Source: Paenibacillus ihumii (lineage in GTDB: Bacteria; Bacillota; Bacilli; Paenibacillales; Paenibacillaceae). Taken from it: a DNA stretch of 64,000 nucleotides. Below the pieces are notes generated by a model, which worked only from the letters and a program-made list of their open reading frames with translations, was not told the origin of the DNA and searched no databases. The DNA lies in the NCBI RefSeq assembly GCF_001403875.1, contig NZ_LN884298.1, positions 372,001-436,000 on the forward strand, given 5' to 3'. The stretch's first letter is position 1; each line of letters starts with the position of its first letter. A program made the position numbers and the translations under genes. Positions 26,104-45,157 of the stretch are shown in pieces.

Positions 26104-26466
26104 ATGACCACATTGCTGCTGCTCGGCGCGGGCATGATGTTCCTTGCTGTAGCCTTGGGAGCGTTCGGAGCCCATGCATTGAAGAAGAAGCTGTCCGAGG
26201 AAATGATGAAAATTTATCAAACCGGAATCCAATACCACATCGCGCATGCCCTTGGCTTGCTGCTGCTAGGCTTGATCTCTGCGCAATTCGAATCGGCTTC
26301 CCTTATGATGCTGGCCGGCTGGTTCCTGTTCGCGGGCGTCATTCTATTCTCAGGCAGCCTGTACGCGCTAAGCCTGACGGGTATCCGCAAGCTTGGGGCG
26401 ATTACGCCGCTAGGCGGCGTAGCCTTCCTGATCGGCTGGGCCATTATGGCGATTGCGGTGATTTAA
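26104..26466 (+). CDS. DUF423 membrane protein
   Basis: 120 aa from ATG 26104 (GGGAGGTG 8 nt upstream). Small four-helix membrane protein with the DUF423 hallmark GAFGAHALKKKL near the N-terminus and QYHIAHALGLL, later GSLYALSLTG. Function of the family is unknown. Its 3' end overlaps the convergent S-component gene by 23 bp. Confidence 0.9.
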   Translation: MTTLLLLGAGMMFLAVALGAFGAHALKKKLSEEMMKIYQTGIQYHIAHALGLLLLGLISAQFESASLMMLAGWFLFAGVILFSGSLYALSLTGIRKLGAITPLGGVAFLIGWAIMAIAVI

Positions 26467-27163
26467 TCGGCGAGTCCTCCGGGTTCAACAGGCCATACTT
26501 CGATTTGACCCGGATAAGGATTCGCATCCATACTCCTGAGAATAGCGTAAGAAAGAATACGTTCGACAGCGCATGAGCCAAATCGAAATAGAAGCTGGCG
26601 ATATAGGCCGATGCGAATACCGGCCAGGATAATTGATCATAGAAGCCGATGAGGAACCATAAATTCATGATCCAGCCAAACAGAAATCCCCACAGGAAGC
26701 CAAAAATATTTCTGCCCCACATCCGCTTCATCCAGAACGTATCCTTAAGCAGACCCGCCGTGAAACCGATCATCCCCCAGCAGAACATCTGCCATGGCGT
26801 CCATGGCCCTTGCCCCAGGAATATGTTCGATACGACGGCGGCGATGCTGCCTACGAGAAATCCCGTCTCCGCTCCAAAGGCCAGAGCCGCCATGATAATG
26901 ACAAAAGACGTTGGCTGCACGCTGGGGAGCGGCGCAAAAGGCACGCGGCTCACAGCTGCGATGGCTCCCAGCATAGCCACAAGCAAAATTTCCTCCGCCC
27001 TCAGCTTCTTCCTCTCGAAGCGGATAAAGAACGGAACAATCGCCAGGCCAATGATCAGGAAGCTGAGCGGAAGATAGTATTCCTCGAACCAGAACACTGC
27101 GGCAAGCAGCAGGATTACCGCGATGAGGCTGCCGGTATAGATCAAGCGTTTTATTTTTCCCAT
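26444..27163 (-). CDS. ECF transporter S component (putative cobalamin-related)
   Basis: 239 aa integral membrane protein. After two N-terminal hydrophobic segments comes an S-component core: AAVSRVPFAPLPSVQPTSF, GSIAAVVSNIFLGQGPWTPW and GLLKDTFW. It gives the ECF importer its substrate specificity. Last gene of the cobalamin-riboswitch operon; its start overlaps the EcfA stop, so it is translationally coupled. Substrate cobalamin or a corrinoid precursor is inferred from the riboswitch and the transcobalamin-like partners, not from the sequence of this protein. Confidence 0.85.
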   Translation of the reverse strand: MGKIKRLIYTGSLIAVILLLAAVFWFEEYYLPLSFLIIGLAIVPFFIRFERKKLRAEEILLVAMLGAIAAVSRVPFAPLPSVQPTSFVIIMAALAFGAETGFLVGSIAAVVSNIFLGQGPWTPWQMFCWGMIGFTAGLLKDTFWMKRMWGRNIFGFLWGFLFGWIMNLWFLIGFYDQLSWPVFASAYIASFYFDLAHALSNVFFLTLFSGVWMRILIRVKSKYGLLNPEDSPIKSPQSP

Positions 27164-29049
27164 AGCATTTCAATATCCTTCATAGTCATAGCCGCAGGGA
27201 AGAACTCACCCGCCGTGCGGTGAATGATTGTCGTATAAAAGTAATTGTCCCGCAAAAAATCCCTCGTCTCGTCTGCCGCAACCAGCTTGCCGTCAAACAG
27301 CAGCCCGCAGCGGGTCGCATAATGAGCTGCAAATTCGATGTCATGGCTGACCATTAGAATGGTTGTCCCCCTCTCGCGGATAGCCTCAAGCTGTGCAGCC
27401 AGCTTCATTTTGGAGGTAGGATCCAGCCCTTTCGTAGGCTCATCTAGCAGCAGCAATCGCGGCTCCGCTAGAAGGACAAGAATAAGCGCTGCCTTCTGCT
27501 GCTGTCCTCCGCTCAGATCAAGCGGATGCTGGTCCAGCGACTCCTTCAGCTCAAACAGCTCCACCAGTTCGTATAGCCGCTCCTGTCTGCTGACGGTGAA
27601 CGCCTGACCCCGCCGTCCCCCTTGCTCCAAGCTTAGCTCCAGCCGTTCGATTCGATCCTTGAACTGCGCCCTTACCGTATCCCTGGTGAAGTAAAGCAAC
27701 GGATTCTGGGCTACGTACCCGATCCATCGGCTTCTCTCGGCAGTGCTGCTGCGAAGTAAAGATTTTCCCTCCATAAAAATATTCCCGCGCTGCGGCTTCC
27801 TCACACCCGCAATTTGATACAGGAGCGTAGACTTGCCTGAGCCGTTCCCGCCGAATAAAGTGAAGAATTCCCCCTGCCGAATGTGCAGCGAGCAGCCCTT
27901 CAGCACAAGAGGCGCATGCTTCTCGTAGGTGAAGAACAAGTCCCTGCATTCCAGTAAAGACGCTCCAGGCCTCTCGGCTTGCCGTTCCGTTTGCTGTTCA
28001 GCTTGCCATTCCGATTGCAATCCATCTTTGCGCTCAGCTTGCTGTACCACTCGCTGTGCGGTTTGCTGTATAACTTGCTCATTCAATGTCTGCCCATGAT
28101 TTAGCGGTGCGAATGATGTTTTGGATGGCGGCCCGCTTACCCCATCTGTTAATGCTGATGCTTCTGCAGGCGTCCTGGCAAGGGATTCCGCCAATGCCTT
28201 GGTGTACTCGCTAATCCAATGCCGGCCTGCTTTGACGGTAAGCGGGATCGATTGCTCGGGCCTGCTCCAGGCATCCATACCGCCAGCGCCCAGAAATAAT
28301 CGGCTGACAGCGGGCAGATAGGGCATGAAGAATTCATCCCGGCCGTTCCAAATTTCGCGCATAGTCTCTTGCGGCTCCCCGGCGTAGGCGACCTCCCCCG
28401 CCTTAAGCATGACAATCCGGGATGCGAGGGGGAACAGCTCCTCGACTCTATGCTCGCTAATGATAATAGTCATGGACAGCTCCTCATTGATCCGGGCCAG
28501 CAGCTGGATGAACTCCTTGGCGGCAATCGGGTCCAGTTGAGCCGTCGGCTCGTCAAGCAGCAGAACCTTAGGCCGCAAGGACATGACGGAGGCCAGGTTG
28601 AGAAGCTGCTTCTGCCCCCCTGACAGCTCATGTACCTCCAGCTGCAGCCAGTCTTCCATGTCAAAAAATTGAACGAGCTCGCCGATTCTGCGCTGAATTT
28701 GCTCCGTGGGGTAGCCCAGATTTTCCATAGCGAAGGTAAGCTCCTGCCATACCGTATTCATGACGATTTGATTGTCGGGATCCTGAAAAACCATTCCGAT
28801 TTCCTCAATAGAGCACCGCTTCTCCAAGTCATCCAGCAGACTTCCCCTGTACCGTATTTCTCCCCCACGCTGTCCCTCCGGCCGGATCTCCCGCTTTAGC
28901 TGGCGAAGCAGCGTCGTCTTGCCCGAGCCGGATGGCCCGCATAGCAATACGAATTCTCCCTCTTCAACAGTAAGATTTATGTCCGCCAGCATCGCAACCG
29001 ATGCTTCCGGATATCTGAAGCTTACATGTTCGATTTGATAAAGCGCCAA
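27151..29049 (-). CDS. Fused ECF transporter ATPase (EcfA1-EcfA2 type)
   Basis: About 632 aa with two ABC ATPase domains in one chain. Domain 1: Walker A GPSGSGKT (41-48), signature LSGGQKQ (145-151), Walker B LLLDEPTAQLD. Domain 2: Walker A GGNGSGKS (403-410), signature LSGGQQQK (515-522), LLLDEPTKGLD (numbers from GTG 29058). They are joined by a Q/E-rich linker at about 320-365. TTG at 29049 has AAGGAG 8 nt upstream and is preferred over GTG 29058, which lies directly on it. It drives the EcfT/S import complex; fused ATPases of this type occur in vitamin-specific ECF systems. Confidence 0.92.
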   Translation of the reverse strand: MALYQIEHVSFRYPEASVAMLADINLTVEEGEFVLLCGPSGSGKTTLLRQLKREIRPEGQRGGEIRYRGSLLDDLEKRCSIEEIGMVFQDPDNQIVMNTVWQELTFAMENLGYPTEQIQRRIGELVQFFDMEDWLQLEVHELSGGQKQLLNLASVMSLRPKVLLLDEPTAQLDPIAAKEFIQLLARINEELSMTIIISEHRVEELFPLASRIVMLKAGEVAYAGEPQETMREIWNGRDEFFMPYLPAVSRLFLGAGGMDAWSRPEQSIPLTVKAGRHWISEYTKALAESLARTPAEASALTDGVSGPPSKTSFAPLNHGQTLNEQVIQQTAQRVVQQAERKDGLQSEWQAEQQTERQAERPGASLLECRDLFFTYEKHAPLVLKGCSLHIRQGEFFTLFGGNGSGKSTLLYQIAGVRKPQRGNIFMEGKSLLRSSTAERSRWIGYVAQNPLLYFTRDTVRAQFKDRIERLELSLEQGGRRGQAFTVSRQERLYELVELFELKESLDQHPLDLSGGQQQKAALILVLLAEPRLLLLDEPTKGLDPTSKMKLAAQLEAIRERGTTILMVSHDIEFAAHYATRCGLLFDGKLVAADETRDFLRDNYFYTTIIHRTAGEFFPAAMTMKDIEMLWEK

Positions 29050-29924
29050 TGCAGCCACTCCTTCCCATTCATCGCCAGGGGGATGGCCAGGAATACAGCA
29101 TAGCTAAGCAAATGAATCGCTAGCTGAACCGACCACTGCCATCCCTGCAGCCGAGGATACACCTCATAGTGGTTAACGCCGAACAGCGCCCCAATGACTA
29201 TATTCAGCCCCGTTACGGTCATGATCCACAGCACAAGCCTGTCCCGGCGATCCATCCGGTACGCCGTACCGCTGCTTCTTCGCCCGATTCCGTAGCCCCT
29301 GGCCCGCATGGAGCCGGCCGTCTGCAGCGCTTCCTCCAAGGACCAGCCGACGAGGGTATGCATCGTCTCCATGCCTTCCCGCATCAGATGCTTCTTGCTC
29401 CCTCCGGGCTGCAAATAGCCCATCACCTTCTGAATCGTCATGATCTGCTGCAATCTGCGGGTCAGCAGAGGGACGAAGCGAAGCGTTACAGTAATCACAA
29501 AGGCCGTTCGAGGCGCGTACGGCGTCAGCAGATACAGCAGCTTATCCGGCGTCACAACCAAATTAAAGGCGACGAAGGCGAGCAGGATATTCAACAGCGA
29601 CAAGGCAAAAATTGCGCCGTACGCGATAGCCTCCAGCGTAACTGGGCGATCCATCATGTAGAACAGGATCGTAGCGCCCCGGCTGGAGAACAGCGGGTTC
29701 GAGATCGATATAATCAAGGCGATCAGCAGATAGCCTTTGATGACTTTCTTCAAAGCCCGCCCCCCGTCAAGAGAGAAGAGGAGCACTATAATGCATAGTA
29801 ACGACGCCAGCAGATAGACCGGATGCTGAAACATCATGCATGCTGCCAGCAGCACGATGAAATACAGCAGGCATAATCGCGGATGCAGGCCTGAGAACCC
29901 GTAGACCATATCAGCTCTTCCCAT
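29022..29924 (-). CDS. ECF transporter T component (EcfT)
   Basis: About 300 aa transmembrane coupling protein. Family marks: AIAYGAIFALSLLNILLA, then two short Ala-Arg-Gly-type coupling motifs in the cytoplasmic part, the last as SMRARGYGIGRRS. ATG 29924 (AGAGGA 6 nt upstream) is preferred; it overlaps the end of the DUF4430 gene by 14 nt. ATG 29909 is an alternative. Its 3' end overlaps the EcfA start. It links the S component to the fused ATPase. Confidence 0.9.
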   Translation of the reverse strand: MGRADMVYGFSGLHPRLCLLYFIVLLAACMMFQHPVYLLASLLCIIVLLFSLDGGRALKKVIKGYLLIALIISISNPLFSSRGATILFYMMDRPVTLEAIAYGAIFALSLLNILLAFVAFNLVVTPDKLLYLLTPYAPRTAFVITVTLRFVPLLTRRLQQIMTIQKVMGYLQPGGSKKHLMREGMETMHTLVGWSLEEALQTAGSMRARGYGIGRRSSGTAYRMDRRDRLVLWIMTVTGLNIVIGALFGVNHYEVYPRLQGWQWSVQLAIHLLSYAVFLAIPLAMNGKEWLHWRFIKSNM

Positions 29925-31005
29925 CCCATAAACCGTCCTCTGCACCAGCGCCCAAATCCTTGCCCAAATCTTCCGTATACAGCCACCGGATATCATCCCC
30001 CGGGCTCAGCGGCCAGATTCCCGCGCTCCGGTTAGGAAATTTGCCATTCACACTGTACATCCAGCCGCTGCCGGAGCCCTTGTCGAATTCATATAAATTA
30101 TCGATGCCCTGTACATATGCGGTTGCTCCAGTTCCGGTATACTCCATTTGCATCTTTTGACTCCGCGCCGCCTTCTTCAATACATCCAGCACGGTCTTCG
30201 AATCGCCGATGTCCACCTTGGTCGTCTCCATAATCGTGCCGATATCCGGTGCCCCAACGATAGTCAGGGTCACAAAATCGCCAGAGCCTGCCTCCGCCTC
30301 CGCGACCCTTCCCTGTTCCTTGCCTGACTTTATGGCAGCTCCAGGAGTTGAGGCAGGGCCTGCGGAGATTGAACCCGCGGAGGCTGGGCCGCTTTCGCTC
30401 GGCGTCTTAGCTTCTACGGCAGTACCGGCTTTGCTATCGCCACTCCCTACCTGCTGTGGCTGCGGCCCGCCTGCTTCAGGCAGAGGCCCAGGCTGGGAGG
30501 CATGAATGGAAGATCCTTGATCCTTCCCACCTGCTCCAAGGGCTGCTGCGCTCCCGGAAGCATCTCCATCCCCAGTGTCAGAGAGCGGCTTCGCTTCAGT
30601 ATTTCTGGCCGGCAGCGATGAGGCTGATTCCTCTTGCCCCGACACCGCTGACAGCGAACCGCTCTCCCCGCCAGCTGCTGTTCCCAGCTCCTCAGCACCC
30701 TCGGCTGTTCCCGGCTCCTCAGTACCCACAGCTGCTCCCGGCTCTCCAGCATCTGCACCGGCAGGCGCGGGTGAATCCGCGGATGAGCCCTCGCCTGCAT
30801 TGGCGCTGCCGGGTGACTCCTGCTGCCCCGTACCCGGCTCTACCGCAAGGCTTGCCTGCTGCGCCGCCTCGAGCTTGGGCTTCGACTCAGGGGCAAGTCG
30901 ATCTCCCCCGTAAAACCATACCGCAGCCAGCACAATCGCCAGCACGGCCAGCAGTCCGAAGAGTTTATTTCTGTTGCGCCACATTGCTTTGCTCCAATCC
31001 TGCAT
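29911..31005 (-). CDS. Membrane-anchored DUF4430 (transcobalamin-like) protein
   Basis: 364 aa from ATG 31005, which lies directly after GGGGAGGG; the upstream ATG at 31032 has no site. One N-terminal membrane anchor (KLFGLLAVLAIVLAAVWFYG), then about 200 residues of low-complexity S/G/A/E/P sequence as a wall-spanning stalk, then one DUF4430 domain (about 265-355) with GSGSGWMYSVNGKFPN. This C-terminal domain resembles domains 1 and 2 of the neighbouring SLH protein. It probably hands corrinoid from the surface protein to the ECF importer; that is inference. Confidence 0.88.
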   Translation of the reverse strand: MQDWSKAMWRNRNKLFGLLAVLAIVLAAVWFYGGDRLAPESKPKLEAAQQASLAVEPGTGQQESPGSANAGEGSSADSPAPAGADAGEPGAAVGTEEPGTAEGAEELGTAAGGESGSLSAVSGQEESASSLPARNTEAKPLSDTGDGDASGSAAALGAGGKDQGSSIHASQPGPLPEAGGPQPQQVGSGDSKAGTAVEAKTPSESGPASAGSISAGPASTPGAAIKSGKEQGRVAEAEAGSGDFVTLTIVGAPDIGTIMETTKVDIGDSKTVLDVLKKAARSQKMQMEYTGTGATAYVQGIDNLYEFDKGSGSGWMYSVNGKFPNRSAGIWPLSPGDDIRWLYTEDLGKDLGAGAEDGLWDGKS

Positions 31006-31079
31006 AAGCCCTCCCCAAGCTATAGTAATCATATAAATAGGGAAAGAAGGAGGCTTAAGGCTCCTTCTCCCGGTTGATT

Positions 31080-34000
31080 CTATGAATGGATCATTTCATA
31101 CATTTTTACAATGACAACGGCGGCCATTTCTCTAGTAACCTGCTCGTGCGGGCGGAAATAATCGCCGTCTCCTGACATAAGCCCCGATTGAATCGCCGCA
31201 TCCACATAAGCCGCTGCCCAATCCGAGACCTGCTCTCGATCCTTAAGAACGCGGTTGGAGGCTGTGCCCTCCCCTGCATTCGGCTGCAATTGTCCTTGCA
31301 TCCGCACAAGGATCGTAGCCATTTCCTGTCTTGTGATCTGCTGGTTCGGTCCGAATTGATTATCGCTCAGGCCGGAAATCAGACCTTGCTCCTTAGCAGC
31401 CGCTACATACCCGGCATACCAGGAGCCTGGGCTGACATCGTTAAAGCCTGCCGCATTCCCGGACGGCCCTTCGCCTGCCAGTTTGACGACCAGCACCGCG
31501 AATTCCGCACGCGTCAAGCCGCGCTTCGGCTCAAATTGCGGCGACGCCGTCCCTGTCCCGGTCATCAGTCCAAGCTCTGCGGCTCTGCCAACCGCTTCCT
31601 TGGCCCATGCAGATATCGAGGCTTCATCCCCGTATGCAGCCGGAGCCGGTTGGGGAGCGGAAGCTTGAATATCGGACATATCAAACAGCGCGCTTTGCTT
31701 CTTCAGCATCCGCTCATACGCCCCAAGCGCCATCAGGCCCTGATGAGTCGCCATGTAATCACTGGCCCCTCCAGCCGTATGGGCAAAGCCGCCATCCTTA
31801 TTCATATAGACCTGCAGCGCCGTGAGAAGATCACCGCGGGCCTTGACAAACCGTTTATCATCCAGCGGAATATCAAGGCTGGACAGCGCAATAATAACCT
31901 GCGAAATACTCTCGCTCGTCTCTACGCCCCACGCTTTAAAGCCGCCATTCGCCTGCTGCTGCTGCGACAGCCAGGCCAGCGCCTTATCCGTCGCCGCCTT
32001 GACCGCCTTGCGGTCCTGGTATTTCGCCAAGGCCTGCAGAGCCATAGCTGTCATATCTATGTCGCTTTGGCCATTGGTCTCCTTGCTGATCGGGAACCCG
32101 CCGTCGGAGTTCTGCTGCTGCAGTACAGCCGCGATCAGCTTATCCCGTGTCCACAGCGCATCGCCCGGAATATCGGCCTTCGCCGCGTCCAGAGCCAGCA
32201 GCGCGAACACGAGCCCGTTCGTTCCCTGGTTGGTCATGCGCGTATTGTTATAGATTTTCTCCAAGAGATCGAACCCGGCCACGCTGCGCGGGTCTTTACC
32301 GATCGAGACGGCGGCCAGCGCCATGCGCTCGTAATCCGTCACTAGCCGGAATTCACCGTTCTTCTCCCGAATATGGCTTTCGAGCACGGAATAGTACTCC
32401 GCAGGGACTTGCTTGCCGGAGCGGGCCAACGCAATGGCATCCCAATCATTGAAATTGTCATGCTTGGAAAAGCTGCGGTTGTTCAGAATCCAAGCCGCTG
32501 AGCGGGCGATGGCCTCCTTAATGCGTACCAGCGAGGCCTCTTTCTGCTCCGGCGTTGCCGCTGCGGCTTGTCCTAGCGATCCGCCAGCTTCGCCGCCTCC
32601 TGCAGCTCCTCCTGCACCAGGTGCTCCGGGTACCGGTGCACCGCCTCCGGCATCTCCGGCTTCAAGATCTTTTCCGAGATTCGTCGTATAGCGCCAACGG
32701 AGAACGTCCCCGTTCTTTAGCGTATACAGCCCGGCGCTGTAGTTCGGGAACACGCCATTCACCGAATACATCCAGCCGCTCTCAGGCCCTTTATCAAACT
32801 CGCTCAGGCCGGCAATGCCCTTGACGTACAGAGTTGCATCCGAACCGGTGTAGTCAACCGATACGCCTCGAGCTTGCGCCGCTCTTCTGAGAACCGTAAA
32901 TGCAGTATCTCCGTCCTGCAGCGTTACTGACACGGGTGAGATGATATCTCCCTCGCCAATCGTACGCTTCTCGACAGATAGAGTAACTGTACGGGACACA
33001 GGGGGATTGGTGACGCCGCCTCCGCCCGGATTCCCGCCGTCACCAGGTGAGCCGCCAGGAGTTCCGCCGCCGCCAGGACTGCTGCCATTCCCGCTGTCAT
33101 CTCCAGGGCTGCTTCCGCCGTTACCAGGCCCGCCGCCCTGTCCAGGGTTATCTTTAGTCTTTAAATCATAAGCGATAAATTCCGTGAAATGCGTTGTTCT
33201 GATGACCAAGTCTCCGCGGTCATCGGCATATGCATATACTGTGTCCTCTCTTGACGATGAGTCGCCATATTTTGGAATCGGGTGAAAGCTGCCGTCGCTG
33301 CCGATCCAGCCAGCATGCCGGCTGCCTTGGCCCGTTAGCTTTAATGTGACGTGGCGGGTGAAATCAATCTGCTCATCGCCGCCTACTTTCACACGGATTG
33401 CGATTCCCGCAAGCTCCTGATTCGATGAGGACAGAGCAGCATTTATGTTGCCGATTAACGCGGCATCCGTGATGCTCAGCTTGCTCGGCAATTGAATAAG
33501 CTTGTTCCATCCTGTGGAAGTCACCTCTGTATTCGGTTCAATGTCGAAATAGGTGCTGTCCGTGACGGTAGTAACCTGCGGCAGCTGGAGCTTGGTAAAC
33601 TGCAGAATGACTTTGTCTTCCGTCAACGGGTCTCCATAAGAGCCGTACTCAAAATGAGTCTCACTATCCGGAACAGGAATAATCTCTTCCTGAATTGGCC
33701 CAGCATAGGCTGCCACATGAACAGTTACAGCCTCTGCATCGCTCTGTCCAGTCAGAGCTCCGGCCAAGGCTTGCATGGAAATCGTGCCCTCCACGGCTTG
33801 GCCGGCAAATGCAATGCGGGCTTGCTGCTCGTTCACCAGAGTAATGCCGGCCACCTGCAGCCCGGTCGACCCCGGGTCGATGAGCCAATGGCTGGCCTGC
33901 TGCGCAGCCGGTGTAAACGTATCCCCAACCAGCTTCAATTCAACCGCCGGGTCTACGGTGCCATGACTGATTTCAGCTGATGTCGCCGACAGGCTGGCCC

Positions 34001-35327
34001 AACGGCTGTAATAGAAATGAACCTGATCACCGGATTGAATGAGATAATCGCCAGCCCCGACGTCAGGCGCGGCCCCATTGACGGTATACATCCAGCCGTC
34101 CCAGCCGCCCAGGGCTCCGGCGGTTTGGCCCGCTATCTCCGTAACGTAAGCGTAGCTACCGCTGCCTGTAATACTGTAGCTGATGGGCGGGACAGCTGTA
34201 TCCAGTCCCTGCTTCATGACGTCTAGCGCCGTAACCTCCCCGCCGCTAGCCGCTACCGTCACAGTCCGAGGCGCATAAATCTCGCTGTCCATCCCGGTCA
34301 CCTGCAGCTGTGCGGCAATGCCAGGCTGGGCCGGCGTTGCCTCGGCAATACGGTACCAGGTCGATTGTCCATGCAGGATGTCAAGCAGCGCAACCAGCGC
34401 CTGCTCCGTAGACATGCTGTTCATTCTTGTATCAGCGGCTTTCCATTTGAAGGAGCCGTCAGCCAGCTGGAACTGCTCATACGCATCCAATACCGAGCGG
34501 CCGTTCTCGATCCACTCAGAGGATAATGCATCGCCGCCTGCAGCGATCAGGCCGGATACTGTAGAAGACAGGCTGTTCGAGTTGTCTCCGGAACCCCATG
34601 TTCCAGGTGAATCGAACCCGCCATTGTCGAGCTGTCTCTGCTTCAGAAGCTCCTTGGCCCGCTGAATGGCGCTGTCTACCGCACTTTGCCCCTGATATTT
34701 CCCTAACGCCAGCAGGGCCATGCCCGTCATATCGGTGTCACCGAAGCTTCCGCTTGGGCTGAGGCCAAATCCGCCATCAGCATACTGGCATTGAAGCAAA
34801 TATTCCAAAGCCTTCTTCTCCGCGGCCTGATCCCACGGACCAACGTCCGCGCCGAGCTTGACCCCGGCATTCAGAGCCAGCATCGCCCAAATATGCTTAT
34901 TTACTCCACCGATAGCTCCGGTATCCGGATCCTGCTGGGCAGCCAGCTCGGCCCATAAATTCCGATCTGTCTCCCAGGCATGCGCCGGATCCTGACCCAT
35001 TGCCAGCAGCCCGAATATGTATCTGATGTGCTCGGTTCCATAGTTATTCGGCGTCAAATTAGGTGCAGTCAGCTCCCAGGAAGGCAATCTCCATTGTCCA
35101 TCCTGCAAATCTACTCCCGCCCCCCACAAAGCTACGAGCTCCCACCAGGACTCGATTCGTTTCGTAGAGCTTGGATCACGATACTGCTCCTCGTAGTAAT
35201 CGAGGGTACTCTCAATCATTCCTTGCAGCCGTGTGTCGCCTGCTCCTCCCGCCGCCTTGGCGAGCTGGGGATTAATCAGCGATAACAGCAGCACGAAGCT
35301 CATCACCATAGGCAAGCTTCTCTTCAT
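31080..35327 (-). CDS. SLH-anchored transcobalamin-like surface protein
   Basis: 1415 aa from ATG 35327 (GGAGG 6 nt upstream; TTG 35348 possible; the longer start 35405 lies inside the terminator stem). Numbering from 35405: signal peptide 27-52; alpha/alpha barrel of prenyltransferase/squalene-oxidase type 55-350 (ADGGFGLSPSGSFGDTDMTG); DUF4430 domain 378-470; beta-rich region 480-750; G/S/P linker 752-803; second DUF4430 805-915 (ESGWMYSVNGVFPN); A/G linker; second alpha/alpha barrel 955-1240 (NSDGGFPISKETNGQSDIDM); three SLH repeats 1262-1440. Animal transcobalamin and intrinsic factor combine the same two folds, barrel plus C-terminal beta domain, and DUF4430 is classed as transcobalamin-C-like. 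With a cobalamin riboswitch in the leader, a role in B12 capture at the cell wall is likely. Confidence 0.9.
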   Translation of the reverse strand: MKRSLPMVMSFVLLLSLINPQLAKAAGGAGDTRLQGMIESTLDYYEEQYRDPSSTKRIESWWELVALWGAGVDLQDGQWRLPSWELTAPNLTPNNYGTEHIRYIFGLLAMGQDPAHAWETDRNLWAELAAQQDPDTGAIGGVNKHIWAMLALNAGVKLGADVGPWDQAAEKKALEYLLQCQYADGGFGLSPSGSFGDTDMTGMALLALGKYQGQSAVDSAIQRAKELLKQRQLDNGGFDSPGTWGSGDNSNSLSSTVSGLIAAGGDALSSEWIENGRSVLDAYEQFQLADGSFKWKAADTRMNSMSTEQALVALLDILHGQSTWYRIAEATPAQPGIAAQLQVTGMDSEIYAPRTVTVAASGGEVTALDVMKQGLDTAVPPISYSITGSGSYAYVTEIAGQTAGALGGWDGWMYTVNGAAPDVGAGDYLIQSGDQVHFYYSRWASLSATSAEISHGTVDPAVELKLVGDTFTPAAQQASHWLIDPGSTGLQVAGITLVNEQQARIAFAGQAVEGTISMQALAGALTGQSDAEAVTVHVAAYAGPIQEEIIPVPDSETHFEYGSYGDPLTEDKVILQFTKLQLPQVTTVTDSTYFDIEPNTEVTSTGWNKLIQLPSKLSITDAALIGNINAALSSSNQELAGIAIRVKVGGDEQIDFTRHVTLKLTGQGSRHAGWIGSDGSFHPIPKYGDSSSREDTVYAYADDRGDLVIRTTHFTEFIAYDLKTKDNPGQGGGPGNGGSSPGDDSGNGSSPGGGGTPGGSPGDGGNPGGGGVTNPPVSRTVTLSVEKRTIGEGDIISPVSVTLQDGDTAFTVLRRAAQARGVSVDYTGSDATLYVKGIAGLSEFDKGPESGWMYSVNGVFPNYSAGLYTLKNGDVLRWRYTTNLGKDLEAGDAGGGAPVPGAPGAGGAAGGGEAGGSLGQAAAATPEQKEASLVRIKEAIARSAAWILNNRSFSKHDNFNDWDAIALARSGKQVPAEYYSVLESHIREKNGEFRLVTDYERMALAAVSIGKDPRSVAGFDLLEKIYNNTRMTNQGTNGLVFALLALDAAKADIPGDALWTRDKLIAAVLQQQNSDGGFPISKETNGQSDIDMTAMALQALAKYQDRKAVKAATDKALAWLSQQQQANGGFKAWGVETSESISQVIIALSSLDIPLDDKRFVKARGDLLTALQVYMNKDGGFAHTAGGASDYMATHQGLMALGAYERMLKKQSALFDMSDIQASAPQPAPAAYGDEASISAWAKEAVGRAAELGLMTGTGTASPQFEPKRGLTRAEFAVLVVKLAGEGPSGNAAGFNDVSPGSWYAGYVAAAKEQGLISGLSDNQFGPNQQITRQEMATILVRMQGQLQPNAGEGTASNRVLKDREQVSDWAAAYVDAAIQSGLMSGDGDYFRPHEQVTREMAAVVIVKMYEMIHS

Positions 35328-35383
35328 CCATTTCCTCCAACTGTTCAACGTCCGCTCTCCTTTACCATCTTGTAATGTGGACA

Positions 35384-35417
35384 ACAAAAAAACATCTTTC
35401 CCCAAAGAAAGATGTTT
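35384..35417 (-). terminator. Riboswitch-controlled intrinsic terminator
   Basis: Perfect stem AAACATCTTTC / GAAAGATGTTT (35390-35400 and 35407-35417) followed on the minus strand by a run of seven T. It stands between the cobalamin riboswitch and the first gene of the operon, so cobalamin binding most likely ends transcription here. Confidence 0.9.
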
Positions 35418-35532
35418 CGAAGTTTTGTCCGTGTCGAACTATACATACGATCGCCGCCCTATGACGCATGATCACGCATAACGGCAGCAGCACGAATAAA
35501 CATCTCCATCCCATCCTCGTGAGAAATTGCAG

Positions 35533-35710
35533 AGCCCTTACACGGCAGGTCTCCTGGCTTCGCTTCATCGCTTAACTATCACCTTCCCATTGTTGATCAA
35601 CAGTGGCTTTACGATAGTCAGCTCCGCGTTACAGTGGCGGGACCGCGTCGAATTTACATCGAACTTCCCTATTAAGCTGCTTCATAATAGATTATGGGCA
35701 GCACCGTATA
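35533..35710 (-). ncRNA. Cobalamin riboswitch
   Basis: Read on the minus strand, the leader holds the conserved blocks in order: GGTGCTGCC, AATAGGGAA, GCGGTCCCGCCACTGTAA, AAGCCACTG, TGGGAAGGTG and the B12 box AGCCAGGAGACCTGCC (35544-35559). Spacing fits a full-length AdoCbl-type aptamer. It controls the downstream ECF transporter operon through the terminator at 35384-35417. Confidence 0.95.
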
Positions 35711-35741
35711 AGTAAAATATGAAATTAGTAGATTCGGGGTT

Positions 35742-35770
35742 ATTGTAGCAGACTTCCTCGGTTTAGACAA
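35742..35770 (-). promoter_or_regulatory. Sigma-A promoter of the cobalamin operon
   Basis: Minus strand TTGTCT (35765-35770), 17-nt spacer, TACAAT (35742-35747). The start site near 35735 places the whole riboswitch in the 5' leader. Confidence 0.7.
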
Positions 35771-35848: not shown

Positions 35849-36095
35849 GGGGCTGTCCAATAAGTCCCAAAAATAAAAGGTTGGAGGGAAAACGTAAAGC
35901 TTCCACTCCATCTTTGTAGTGGCCACCGCCTTTGTAAGAAAGCAGCGAGGCGGCTGCTTGCTGCTATCAGTAGATTGTGGGCTAAGGCCATAAGCCCAAA
36001 CTGCACATGAACCTTGTCCAAGCCTCGCAAAGAAAACCTGCAACACAATCGGTTGCCCCTTGGCCAAACACACTCTCTGCCTCGGATTACTCCTG
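35849..36095 (-). pseudogene. IS1182-type transposase remnant with right end
   Basis: The minus-strand frames carry a broken tail of an IS1182-like transposase: SVFGQ in one frame and RGLDKVHVQFGLMALAHNLL in another, matching the conserved C-terminal VFG...RG..KV..E....AHN pattern. Just beyond it lies GGGGCTGTCC (35849-35858), typical of IS1182 terminal repeats. No left end or complete frame was seen, so this is a decayed end fragment. Confidence 0.6.
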
Positions 36096-36270
36096 ATGTG
36101 ACCAAAAACGCTCCTTGCATCGGGTTACCTCTAATGTGACCAAGCACGCTCCTTGCATCGGATTACCCCTAATGTGACCAAGCACGCTCATGCCTCGGAT
36201 TACCCCTAATGTGACCAAGCACGCTCATGCCTCGGATTACCCCTGATGTACCAAGCACGCTCATGCCTCC
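36081..36270. repeat. 37-38-bp tandem repeat, about five copies
   Basis: Units contain TCGGATTACCCCTAATGTG followed by ACCAAGCACGCTC. The GGATTAC core is at 36084, 36122, 36160, 36197 and 36234. The whole unit repeats without unique spacers, so it is a minisatellite, not CRISPR. It begins at the end of the transposase remnant. Confidence 0.85.
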
Positions 36271-44759: not shown

Positions 44760-44938
44760 TACTCACCTCTCCCTATCATTGAAAATATTACTTGTCCCCG
44801 AATCCCATTTTACTACAACACACTTACAAAATCTGTAACAAGTGTACAAATACCCAAAAATCCGCCCCTGGATCGATTCTTTGAGAAAATGGGTTTCGGA
44901 CCGAAGTTACGCCATTTAATTTCACTTCTGACCCTGTC

Positions 44939-45157
44939 CAATTCCTATCGACTCCAATTCCCGTCAATTCCAACTCTTATAGACTTCAACCCCTACTAAT
45001 TCCAATTCCTATCAATTCCAACTCCTATTGACTCCAATCCTACCAATTTTAATTCCCATCGATTCCAACCCCTATTGACTCCAATCCTACCAATTCCAAT
45101 CCTATGGATTCTAATTCCTATCGACTCCAATTCTTATCGATTCTAATTCCTATCAAA
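44939..45157. repeat. 16-bp minisatellite, about 14 degenerate copies
   Basis: Consensus TTCCTATCGACTCCAA with 15- and 16-bp units; fills most of the 500-bp spacer between the GyrI-like gene and the AraC pseudogene. No coding potential beyond it. Confidence 0.85.

Follow-up and report, generated by a model that had tools for sequence, protein, structure and literature searches.

We analysed a 64,000-nucleotide stretch of the Paenibacillus ihumii genome (assembly GCF_001403875.1, contig NZ_LN884298.1, positions 372,001 to 436,000 of the forward strand), hereafter the window, whose positions serve as coordinates throughout. Five genes, all on the minus strand and running from 35770 down to 26444, form an operon behind a Cobalamin riboswitch. 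They encode a large wall protein with SLH domains, a membrane-anchored DUF4430 protein, EcfT, a fused EcfA-EcfA' ATPase and a substrate-binding (S) component of the energy-coupling factor (ECF) type (Table 1). The likely role of this operon in the acquisition of vitamin B12 and related corrinoids is the subject of this report.

Table 1. Features of the operon and its leader in window coordinates; residues of the wall-protein domains are counted on its longest open reading frame (ORF)
Feature	Position	Strand	Details
Putative promoter TTGTCT-17-TACAAT, TG ahead of second hexamer	35742..35770	-	hexamers conserved
Cobalamin riboswitch aptamer, RF00174	35527..35723	-	115.7 bits, E 2.7e-28
Candidate antiterminator strand GGAGATGTTTAT	35496..35507	-	complementary to terminator 5' arm
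Intrinsic terminator-like hairpin	35389..35418	-	13-pair stem and T run; -14.0 kcal/mol alone
SLH wall protein	31080..35348	-	1422 residues from likely TTG start; longest ORF 1441 residues
Alpha/alpha barrel 1	34347..35234	-	ORF residues 58-353; AlphaFold2 model
DUF4430 domain 1, beta domain of first transcobalamin-like unit	34005..34235	-	ORF residues 391-467
DUF4430 domain 2	32664..32915	-	ORF residues 831-914
Alpha/alpha barrel 2	31704..32552	-	ORF residues 952-1234
Three SLH domains, wall anchor	31101..31613	-	ORF residues 1265-1435; PF00395 6.9e-33, 3 stretches
Hairpin between wall-protein gene and membrane DUF4430 gene	31042..31071	-	11 pairs
Membrane-anchored DUF4430 protein	29911..31032	-	DUF4430 at residues 277-360
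EcfT, CbiQ family	29022..29996	-	PF02361 3.1e-8; conserved in relatives
Fused EcfA-EcfA' ATPase	27151..29058	-	TIGR04520 2.8e-99, 331.9 bits vs cut-off 315
ECF S component, CbrT-like	26444..27163	-	6fnp_A 6e-16

The wall protein begins with a signal-peptide-like N-terminus, followed by a barrel, two DUF4430 domains, a further barrel and three SLH domains. Pfam matched it to DUF4430 twice, SLH three times and toroid families (Prenyltrans/SQHop); DUF4430 (PF14478) scored 126.9 and 67.1 bits against a curated cut-off of 23.8, and the SLH part matched the S-layer protein Sap (2.4e-14). The first-pass annotation had described barrel and DUF4430 folds in this protein; these are present, corrected to two of each, and the start at 35405 was revised. 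Since the longest ORF, with its listed TTG start at 35405, begins within the terminator, the gene probably starts at TTG 35348, which is preceded by aaaggagag. Asp225 and Gln335 of the first barrel-DUF4430 unit were invariant in 48/48 aligned rows, as were their counterparts Asp1117 and Gln1222 in 23/23.

The first unit was modelled with AlphaFold2 (ORF residues 45-472, 48 sequences, predicted local distance difference test (pLDDT) 93.0, predicted template modelling score 0.81) and compared by Foldseek with 350,542 PDB chains. The top 15 matches were all transcobalamin, haptocorrin or intrinsic factor (E 1.1e-10 to 2.1e-8), in alignments of 450-481 columns that covered both domains in order, while the matches after the 15th, from 2.0e-5 onwards, were mainly toroid enzymes, aligned over fewer columns. 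On its own, the beta domain of transcobalamin (5no0) matched the first unit with a template modelling (TM) score of 0.77 (by 5no0 length) and a root-mean-square deviation (rmsd) of 2.7 Å. The second unit was modelled over residues 815-1262 in the order DUF4430-barrel (pLDDT 84.8); its barrel lay on transcobalamin with an rmsd of 3.1 Å over 244 residues (Z 19.9), with cyclases scoring higher (Z 23.8). The models predict a two-part likeness to transcobalamin and intrinsic factor with the parts in the same order, bearing out the earlier claim that the animal B12 carriers consist of the same two folds. In these predictions it is the pair of domains that singles out the B12 carriers, which the barrel fold alone does not.

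Downstream, the membrane DUF4430 protein starts with a hydrophobic helix at its N-terminus, continues through a low-complexity linker and carries a single DUF4430 domain. In a single-sequence search, the S component of the importer matched 6fnp_A and no further chain up to E 1; a profile built from 20 such S components reached 6fnp at 1e-24 and the next chain at 1.6e-4. The membrane-anchored DUF4430 protein, EcfT, fused EcfA and S component named in the first-pass annotation were all present by Pfam. Judged by its S profile, the importer belongs to the CbrT class and is known in kind. The prediction of CbrT reportedly stems from Rodionov 2009. The structure 6FNP shows ECF-CbrT of Lactobacillus delbrueckii, a transporter of cobalamin and cobinamide; once purified, the complex moves cobalamin in liposomes, and CbrT by itself binds cobalamin (PMC5997447; the papers cited here by PMC number were available in part, and our statements refer to those parts).

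At the head of the operon, where a Cobalamin riboswitch had been proposed, the RF00174 match covered model positions 1-189, the full aptamer, against a gathering score of 31.5 bits, and was the sole match in the window at gathering thresholds. The strand GGAGATGTTTAT, which starts at 35507, can form a duplex of 9-10 pairs with the terminator 5' arm, and 19/1000 mononucleotide shuffles reached the energy of this duplex. It was conserved in 6 aligned leaders; L047 had one base changed, and L051 carried an insertion after GGAGATGTTT. Of the promoter and terminator claimed for the leader, the terminator-like hairpin stood, with the number of such sites in the window only somewhat above shuffles (13 vs a shuffle mean of 8.8, sd 2.9). 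Promoter-like sites were not above shuffles (5 vs a mean of 7.6), so the putative promoter rests on its place and on its conservation in the closest relatives: both hexamers are kept in the leaders of L032, L033 and L034, and TACAAT also in L047. Riboswitch, antiterminator and terminator together are a candidate for the usual arrangement of transcriptional control. The hairpin behind the wall-protein gene may be a partial terminator or processing site and may lower the expression of the downstream genes. The window also holds a 38-bp tandem repeat (5.4 copies, 36071-36269) upstream of the operon promoter, and a long imperfect tandem array of 16/47-bp units at 44937-45156.

The same operon was found in the same-genus relative G004 (L032), whose wall protein is 81% identical and whose riboswitch coordinates coincide with those of the genome of L046, Paenibacillus bouchesdurhonensis. 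Seven DUF4430 domains were used to scan genomes, which gave at least 579 relatives among 598 candidate stretches, of which the best 80 were kept, making up 77 loci. A cobalamin-class riboswitch lay upstream on the same strand in 69/77 loci, 61 of them by sequence profile (E ≤1e-5) and 8 by Rfam only (7 RF00174, 1 RF01482); on the opposite strand, the profile search of the 77 loci had no match at E 0.1. Three loci with no upstream riboswitch (L054, L093, L107) had less than 2 kb upstream of the matched domain, and in L093 a riboswitch lay downstream; L104 and L118 gave sub-threshold matches only (30.8 and 24.9 bits), upstream and on the same strand by coordinate; and none was found within the locus in L063, L097 and L113. 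EcfT was present in 63 loci, the ATPase pair in 63, the S component in 62 and the barrel in 73, and all five operon parts occurred together in 57/77. A DUF4430-only protein preceded EcfT in 59/77 loci; by script, 38 of these had an N-terminal transmembrane segment, 16 a lipobox with a transmembrane segment and 5 neither, though a Cys box can be made out by eye in 4 of the 5. The DUF4430 ahead of EcfT sits on the barrel protein in L066 and L108. EcfT was missing from 14 loci (L048, L049, L050, L064, L065, L068, L076, L078, L090, L103, L105, L111, L113 and L122), 13 of which have an upstream cobalamin riboswitch; most consist of barrel-DUF4430 genes alone, and the sequence of L065 and L105 stops just past the DUF4430 gene. 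The search of viral contigs gave four pattern matches and 0 relatives of the membrane DUF4430 protein.

One locus fuses two of the parts. In L036:4494-6284, an S component stands in one frame with a barrel, linked through a hydrophobic signal-like stretch; its S part is 41% identical to that of the window (2e-32), its barrel is 33% identical to the wall protein (3e-14), and Pfam toroids lie at residues 282-405. This fusion was the only one among 91 loci scanned. Separately, both ATPases and the S component share a single long open frame in L072, L075, L088, L102, L104, L109, L128 and L129.

Co-inheritance was assessed first in a close set of 39 genomes, the own genome and 38 relatives. DUF4430 occurred in 11/39 genomes, strongly in 8, and the S component in 8/39, exactly those with strong DUF4430. 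These 8 genomes hold 9 strong DUF4430 clusters, each just downstream of a Cobalamin riboswitch on the same strand (paired by coordinate); all 39/39 genomes have at least one such riboswitch. The weak DUF4430 matches in G006, G012 and G019 (22.9-27.1 bits) fell in proteins of 238-247 residues (L043:6798-7523, L044:6217-6933, L045:6695-7438), with no RF00174 beside these genes and no S component in these genomes; in G019 (L044) the following gene is nitrite-reductase-like. We put these matches aside as another group or chance, seemingly unrelated to B12.

A wider sample comprised 119 Bacillota genomes including the own one, drawn independently of likeness and scored with wall anchors uncounted. 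DUF4430 was present in 37, an S component of at least 98 bits in 37 and both in 36 (Fisher 3.6e-28, with species not independent); one genome had DUF4430 without a strong S component and one the reverse. S matches of 45 bits or less were not counted, and 16 further genomes had only such weaker matches; G126, with a weak S match only, has DUF4430 followed by a gene of 167 residues without Pfam match. Among the 44 DUF4430 clusters of this sample, a Cobalamin riboswitch lay upstream at no more than 10 kb and on the same strand in 34, and on the opposite strand in 1; a strong S component was encoded on the cluster's own strand within 10 kb in 33/44. The count includes the own riboswitch, whose row was entered separately. 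Two G136 clusters, lying around two riboswitches, were joined by the script into one, which makes 34/44 low by one, and three G175 RF00174 rows below the cut-off (30.2, 29.2 and 23.8 bits) were left out, the 23.8-bit row lying just upstream of a G175 DUF4430 on the same strand. The association of DUF4430 with CbrT-like S components is real, the conserved operon, the riboswitch linkage and the phylogenetic profile exceeding what chance would give, and the core was found in about a third of the sampled Bacillota genomes.

In the own genome, DUF4430 occurs nowhere beyond the three domains of the operon. The three other Cobalamin riboswitches of this genome (L040, L041, L042) precede metE, a BtuF-like ABC system and nrdD/nrdG; the nrdD/nrdG locus also holds a further ribonucleotide reductase gene, and an uninterrupted MetH-type gene is present. 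CbiC, the one marker looked for, was not found, so de novo corrin synthesis is unlikely. From its gene content, the organism likely uses B12, has B12-free alternatives to fall back on and holds two candidate B12 importers; it is probably a B12 auxotroph. The presence of DUF4430 with a CbrT-like S component in 36/119 Bacillota genomes, scored with wall anchors uncounted, does not support the earlier suggestion that such a system is unusual; the own genome has the BtuF-like system as well.

We consider it likely that this operon serves corrinoid (vitamin B12) acquisition, with transcobalamin-like modules capturing the vitamin and a CbrT-like ECF importer taking it up. When B12 is scarce, the riboswitch would leave the antiterminator free and the operon would be read. 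The SLH protein in the wall would then present its two sets of barrel and DUF4430 transcobalamin-like domains. By analogy with transcobalamin, whose beta domain takes up cobalamin first and whose alpha domain closes afterwards (PMC11107200), DUF4430 would take the corrinoid first and the barrel would close over it. The vitamin might next be handed from the wall protein to the membrane-tethered DUF4430 protein and on to the CbrT-like S component, an order that we infer, and EcfT and the fused ATPase would power import.

Several observations weigh against this reading. The global rmsd of the first unit to the ligand-bound carriers was about 22 Å (TM 0.37-0.43), and the ligand-free model lacks the closed sandwich. 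Since the match nevertheless spans both domains, the interdomain angle appears to differ from that of the closed carriers; such a placement is compatible with a transcobalamin-like mechanism, because transcobalamin domains produced apart from each other need added cobalamin to assemble (PMC5599065). For the second unit, Foldseek ranked toroid enzymes (7.2e-5) and transcobalamin (7.5e-5) about equal. By sequence, the DUF4430 profile placed transcobalamin-2 first at just 0.097, next to nitrous-oxide reductase at 0.12; no transcobalamin-family chain came within E 0.01 of the barrel profile, and within E 10 the sole carrier chains were those of intrinsic factor, reached via DUF4430 at E 0.7. There was no significant sequence similarity to the carriers over both domains, the DUF4430 part alone aligning at E 0.097-1.2. 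On the genomic side, 10/44 DUF4430 clusters lacked an upstream riboswitch by script, among them 2 that begin near a contig end, 1 merging artefact and 1 in G175 with the 23.8-bit sub-threshold match. G170 and G207, in which a small single-domain DUF4430 gene overlaps the S gene (L123:5481-6382, L124:6035-6912), showed neither barrel nor EcfT within the 12 kb retrieved, and RF00174 had no match anywhere in these genomes; because they have the pair without a barrel, the DUF4430-S pair may be the core, and barrel and wall anchor may be additions. The own genome also holds, behind another Cobalamin riboswitch, the BtuF-like system of a Peripla_BP_2 binding protein and an ABC ATPase. Finally, because purified ECF-CbrT sufficed (PMC5997447), DUF4430 accessory proteins would not be needed for transport as such, which by this comparison speaks against an obligatory relay.

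How far the acquisition of B12 extends to other corrinoids is the closest of the alternatives. ECF-CbrT also carries cobinamide (PMC5997447), and the operon could import corrinoids besides finished cobalamin (cobinamide, other cobamides), its wall protein acting as a broad haptocorrin-like scavenger; the BtuF-like second system behind its own Cobalamin riboswitch means that two systems could split the ligands. The evidence gathered here does not discriminate cobalamin from other corrinoids, and a single broad-specificity system would serve cobalamin as well. We regard this alternative as unlikely, though worth keeping in view.

It is far less probable that B12 is handled by the ECF importer only, with the wall protein a B12-switched enzyme or adhesin such as a terpene cyclase, a prenyltransferase or a glycan-acting toroid. 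Such an enzyme would explain why the barrel profile is nearest by sequence to squalene-hopene cyclase (1e-22), and why VIA-align of the first unit gave cyclases the highest Z (squalene-hopene cyclase 22.1, intrinsic factor 19.9 over 341 aligned residues). Both of these also count against a carrier. Class II terpene cyclases and prenyltransferases are defined by the DXDD motif or by conserved Zn ligands. In the barrels, however, DxDx ended in a residue other than Asp in 48/48 rows, so that DXDD lacks its last Asp, and Cys and His reached 70% conservation in none of the columns of these 48 rows; with DXDD incomplete and no conserved Cys or His, activity as cyclase or prenyltransferase is judged unlikely. 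Barrel and DUF4430 together placed the B12 carriers first in Foldseek, L036 has barrel and S component in one protein, and all five operon parts stay together in most loci, all of which speaks against such an enzyme. Import of riboflavin or cobalt by the ECF module, which the Pfam names ECF-ribofla_trS and CbiQ would suggest, is the most improbable alternative and was rejected, given the CbrT profile match at 1e-24 vs 1.6e-4 for the next S component and the Cobalamin riboswitch upstream of 34/44 clusters in a sample not picked by likeness.

Set beside known systems, the corrinoid-acquisition operon resembles ECF-CbrT of L. delbrueckii in its related S component and in having EcfT with two ATPases. 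Its ECF module is operon-encoded with the ATPases fused, whereas L. delbrueckii has one ECF module for eight predicted S components, and wall and tethered DUF4430 proteins head the operon here, unlike there. In L. delbrueckii, cbrS lies beside cbrT (nrdJ-cbrS-cbrT-pduO; PMC5997447); in G170 and G207, a DUF4430 gene is paired with an S gene. An L. rhamnosus protein named 'additional lipoprotein component of putative cobalamin ECF transporter' (PMC9963975) is, like the membrane DUF4430 protein, an anchored extra protein attributed to a cobalamin ECF system; it is known by this annotation name only, and the available part of the paper does not mention a wall protein, a barrel or a likeness to transcobalamin. 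The same paper separately lists a DUF4430 protein beside rtpR. BtuG of Bacteroides likewise captures B12 at the surface ahead of an importer and is encoded in B12 transport loci, but in the part of the paper at hand it is reported from Bacteroidetes only, with BtuB as partner, and is likened here by description alone (PMC6143338).

The animal carriers transcobalamin, intrinsic factor and haptocorrin (2bb5, 2pmv, 4kki) share with the modelled first unit the layout of an N-terminal alpha/alpha barrel ahead of a ubiquitin-like beta domain, and a DUF4430 domain has been described in the C-terminal part of animal carriers (PMC4350170). The bacterial proteins differ in being anchored in wall or membrane (by SLH domains or an N-terminal hydrophobic anchor), whereas the animal carriers are soluble and taken up through receptors; in having no known receptor; in often having barrel and DUF4430 on separate proteins; and in lacking cysteine in 36/48 aligned rows, against 3-4 disulfides in the animal alpha domain (PMC11107200). 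Among the open-licence full-text papers listed, available in part and with subscription papers and preprints outside this scope, none was found that joins DUF4430/barrel surface proteins with ECF-CbrT and transcobalamin. Already known are ECF-CbrT and the name 'lipoprotein component'; what is new is the wall-bound transcobalamin-like protein, together with the idea of a split carrier.

That idea goes further than corrinoid acquisition as such, and we offer it tentatively, leaning slightly against it: an anchored or S-fused barrel (alpha) and a DUF4430 (beta) half would join around B12 and pass it to the ECF importer, and the animal carriers would descend from the bacterial family or share an ancestor with it. 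An anchored DUF4430 next to the importer, with barrels on the wall protein, fits such a split transcobalamin because assembly of the transcobalamin domains is cobalamin-dependent and begins with the beta domain. If corrinoid acquisition is the true role of the operon, DUF4430 and a class of toroid surface proteins, assigned by Pfam to prenyltransferases or cyclases, would gain a concrete function, and Gram-positive cells would have a proposed way to retain the scarce vitamin on the outer side of the membrane until it is imported. Purified domains make a relationship of the human B12 carriers to bacterial proteins testable, and such proteins could, if the proposed role is right, vie with other B12 binders wherever these bacteria live.

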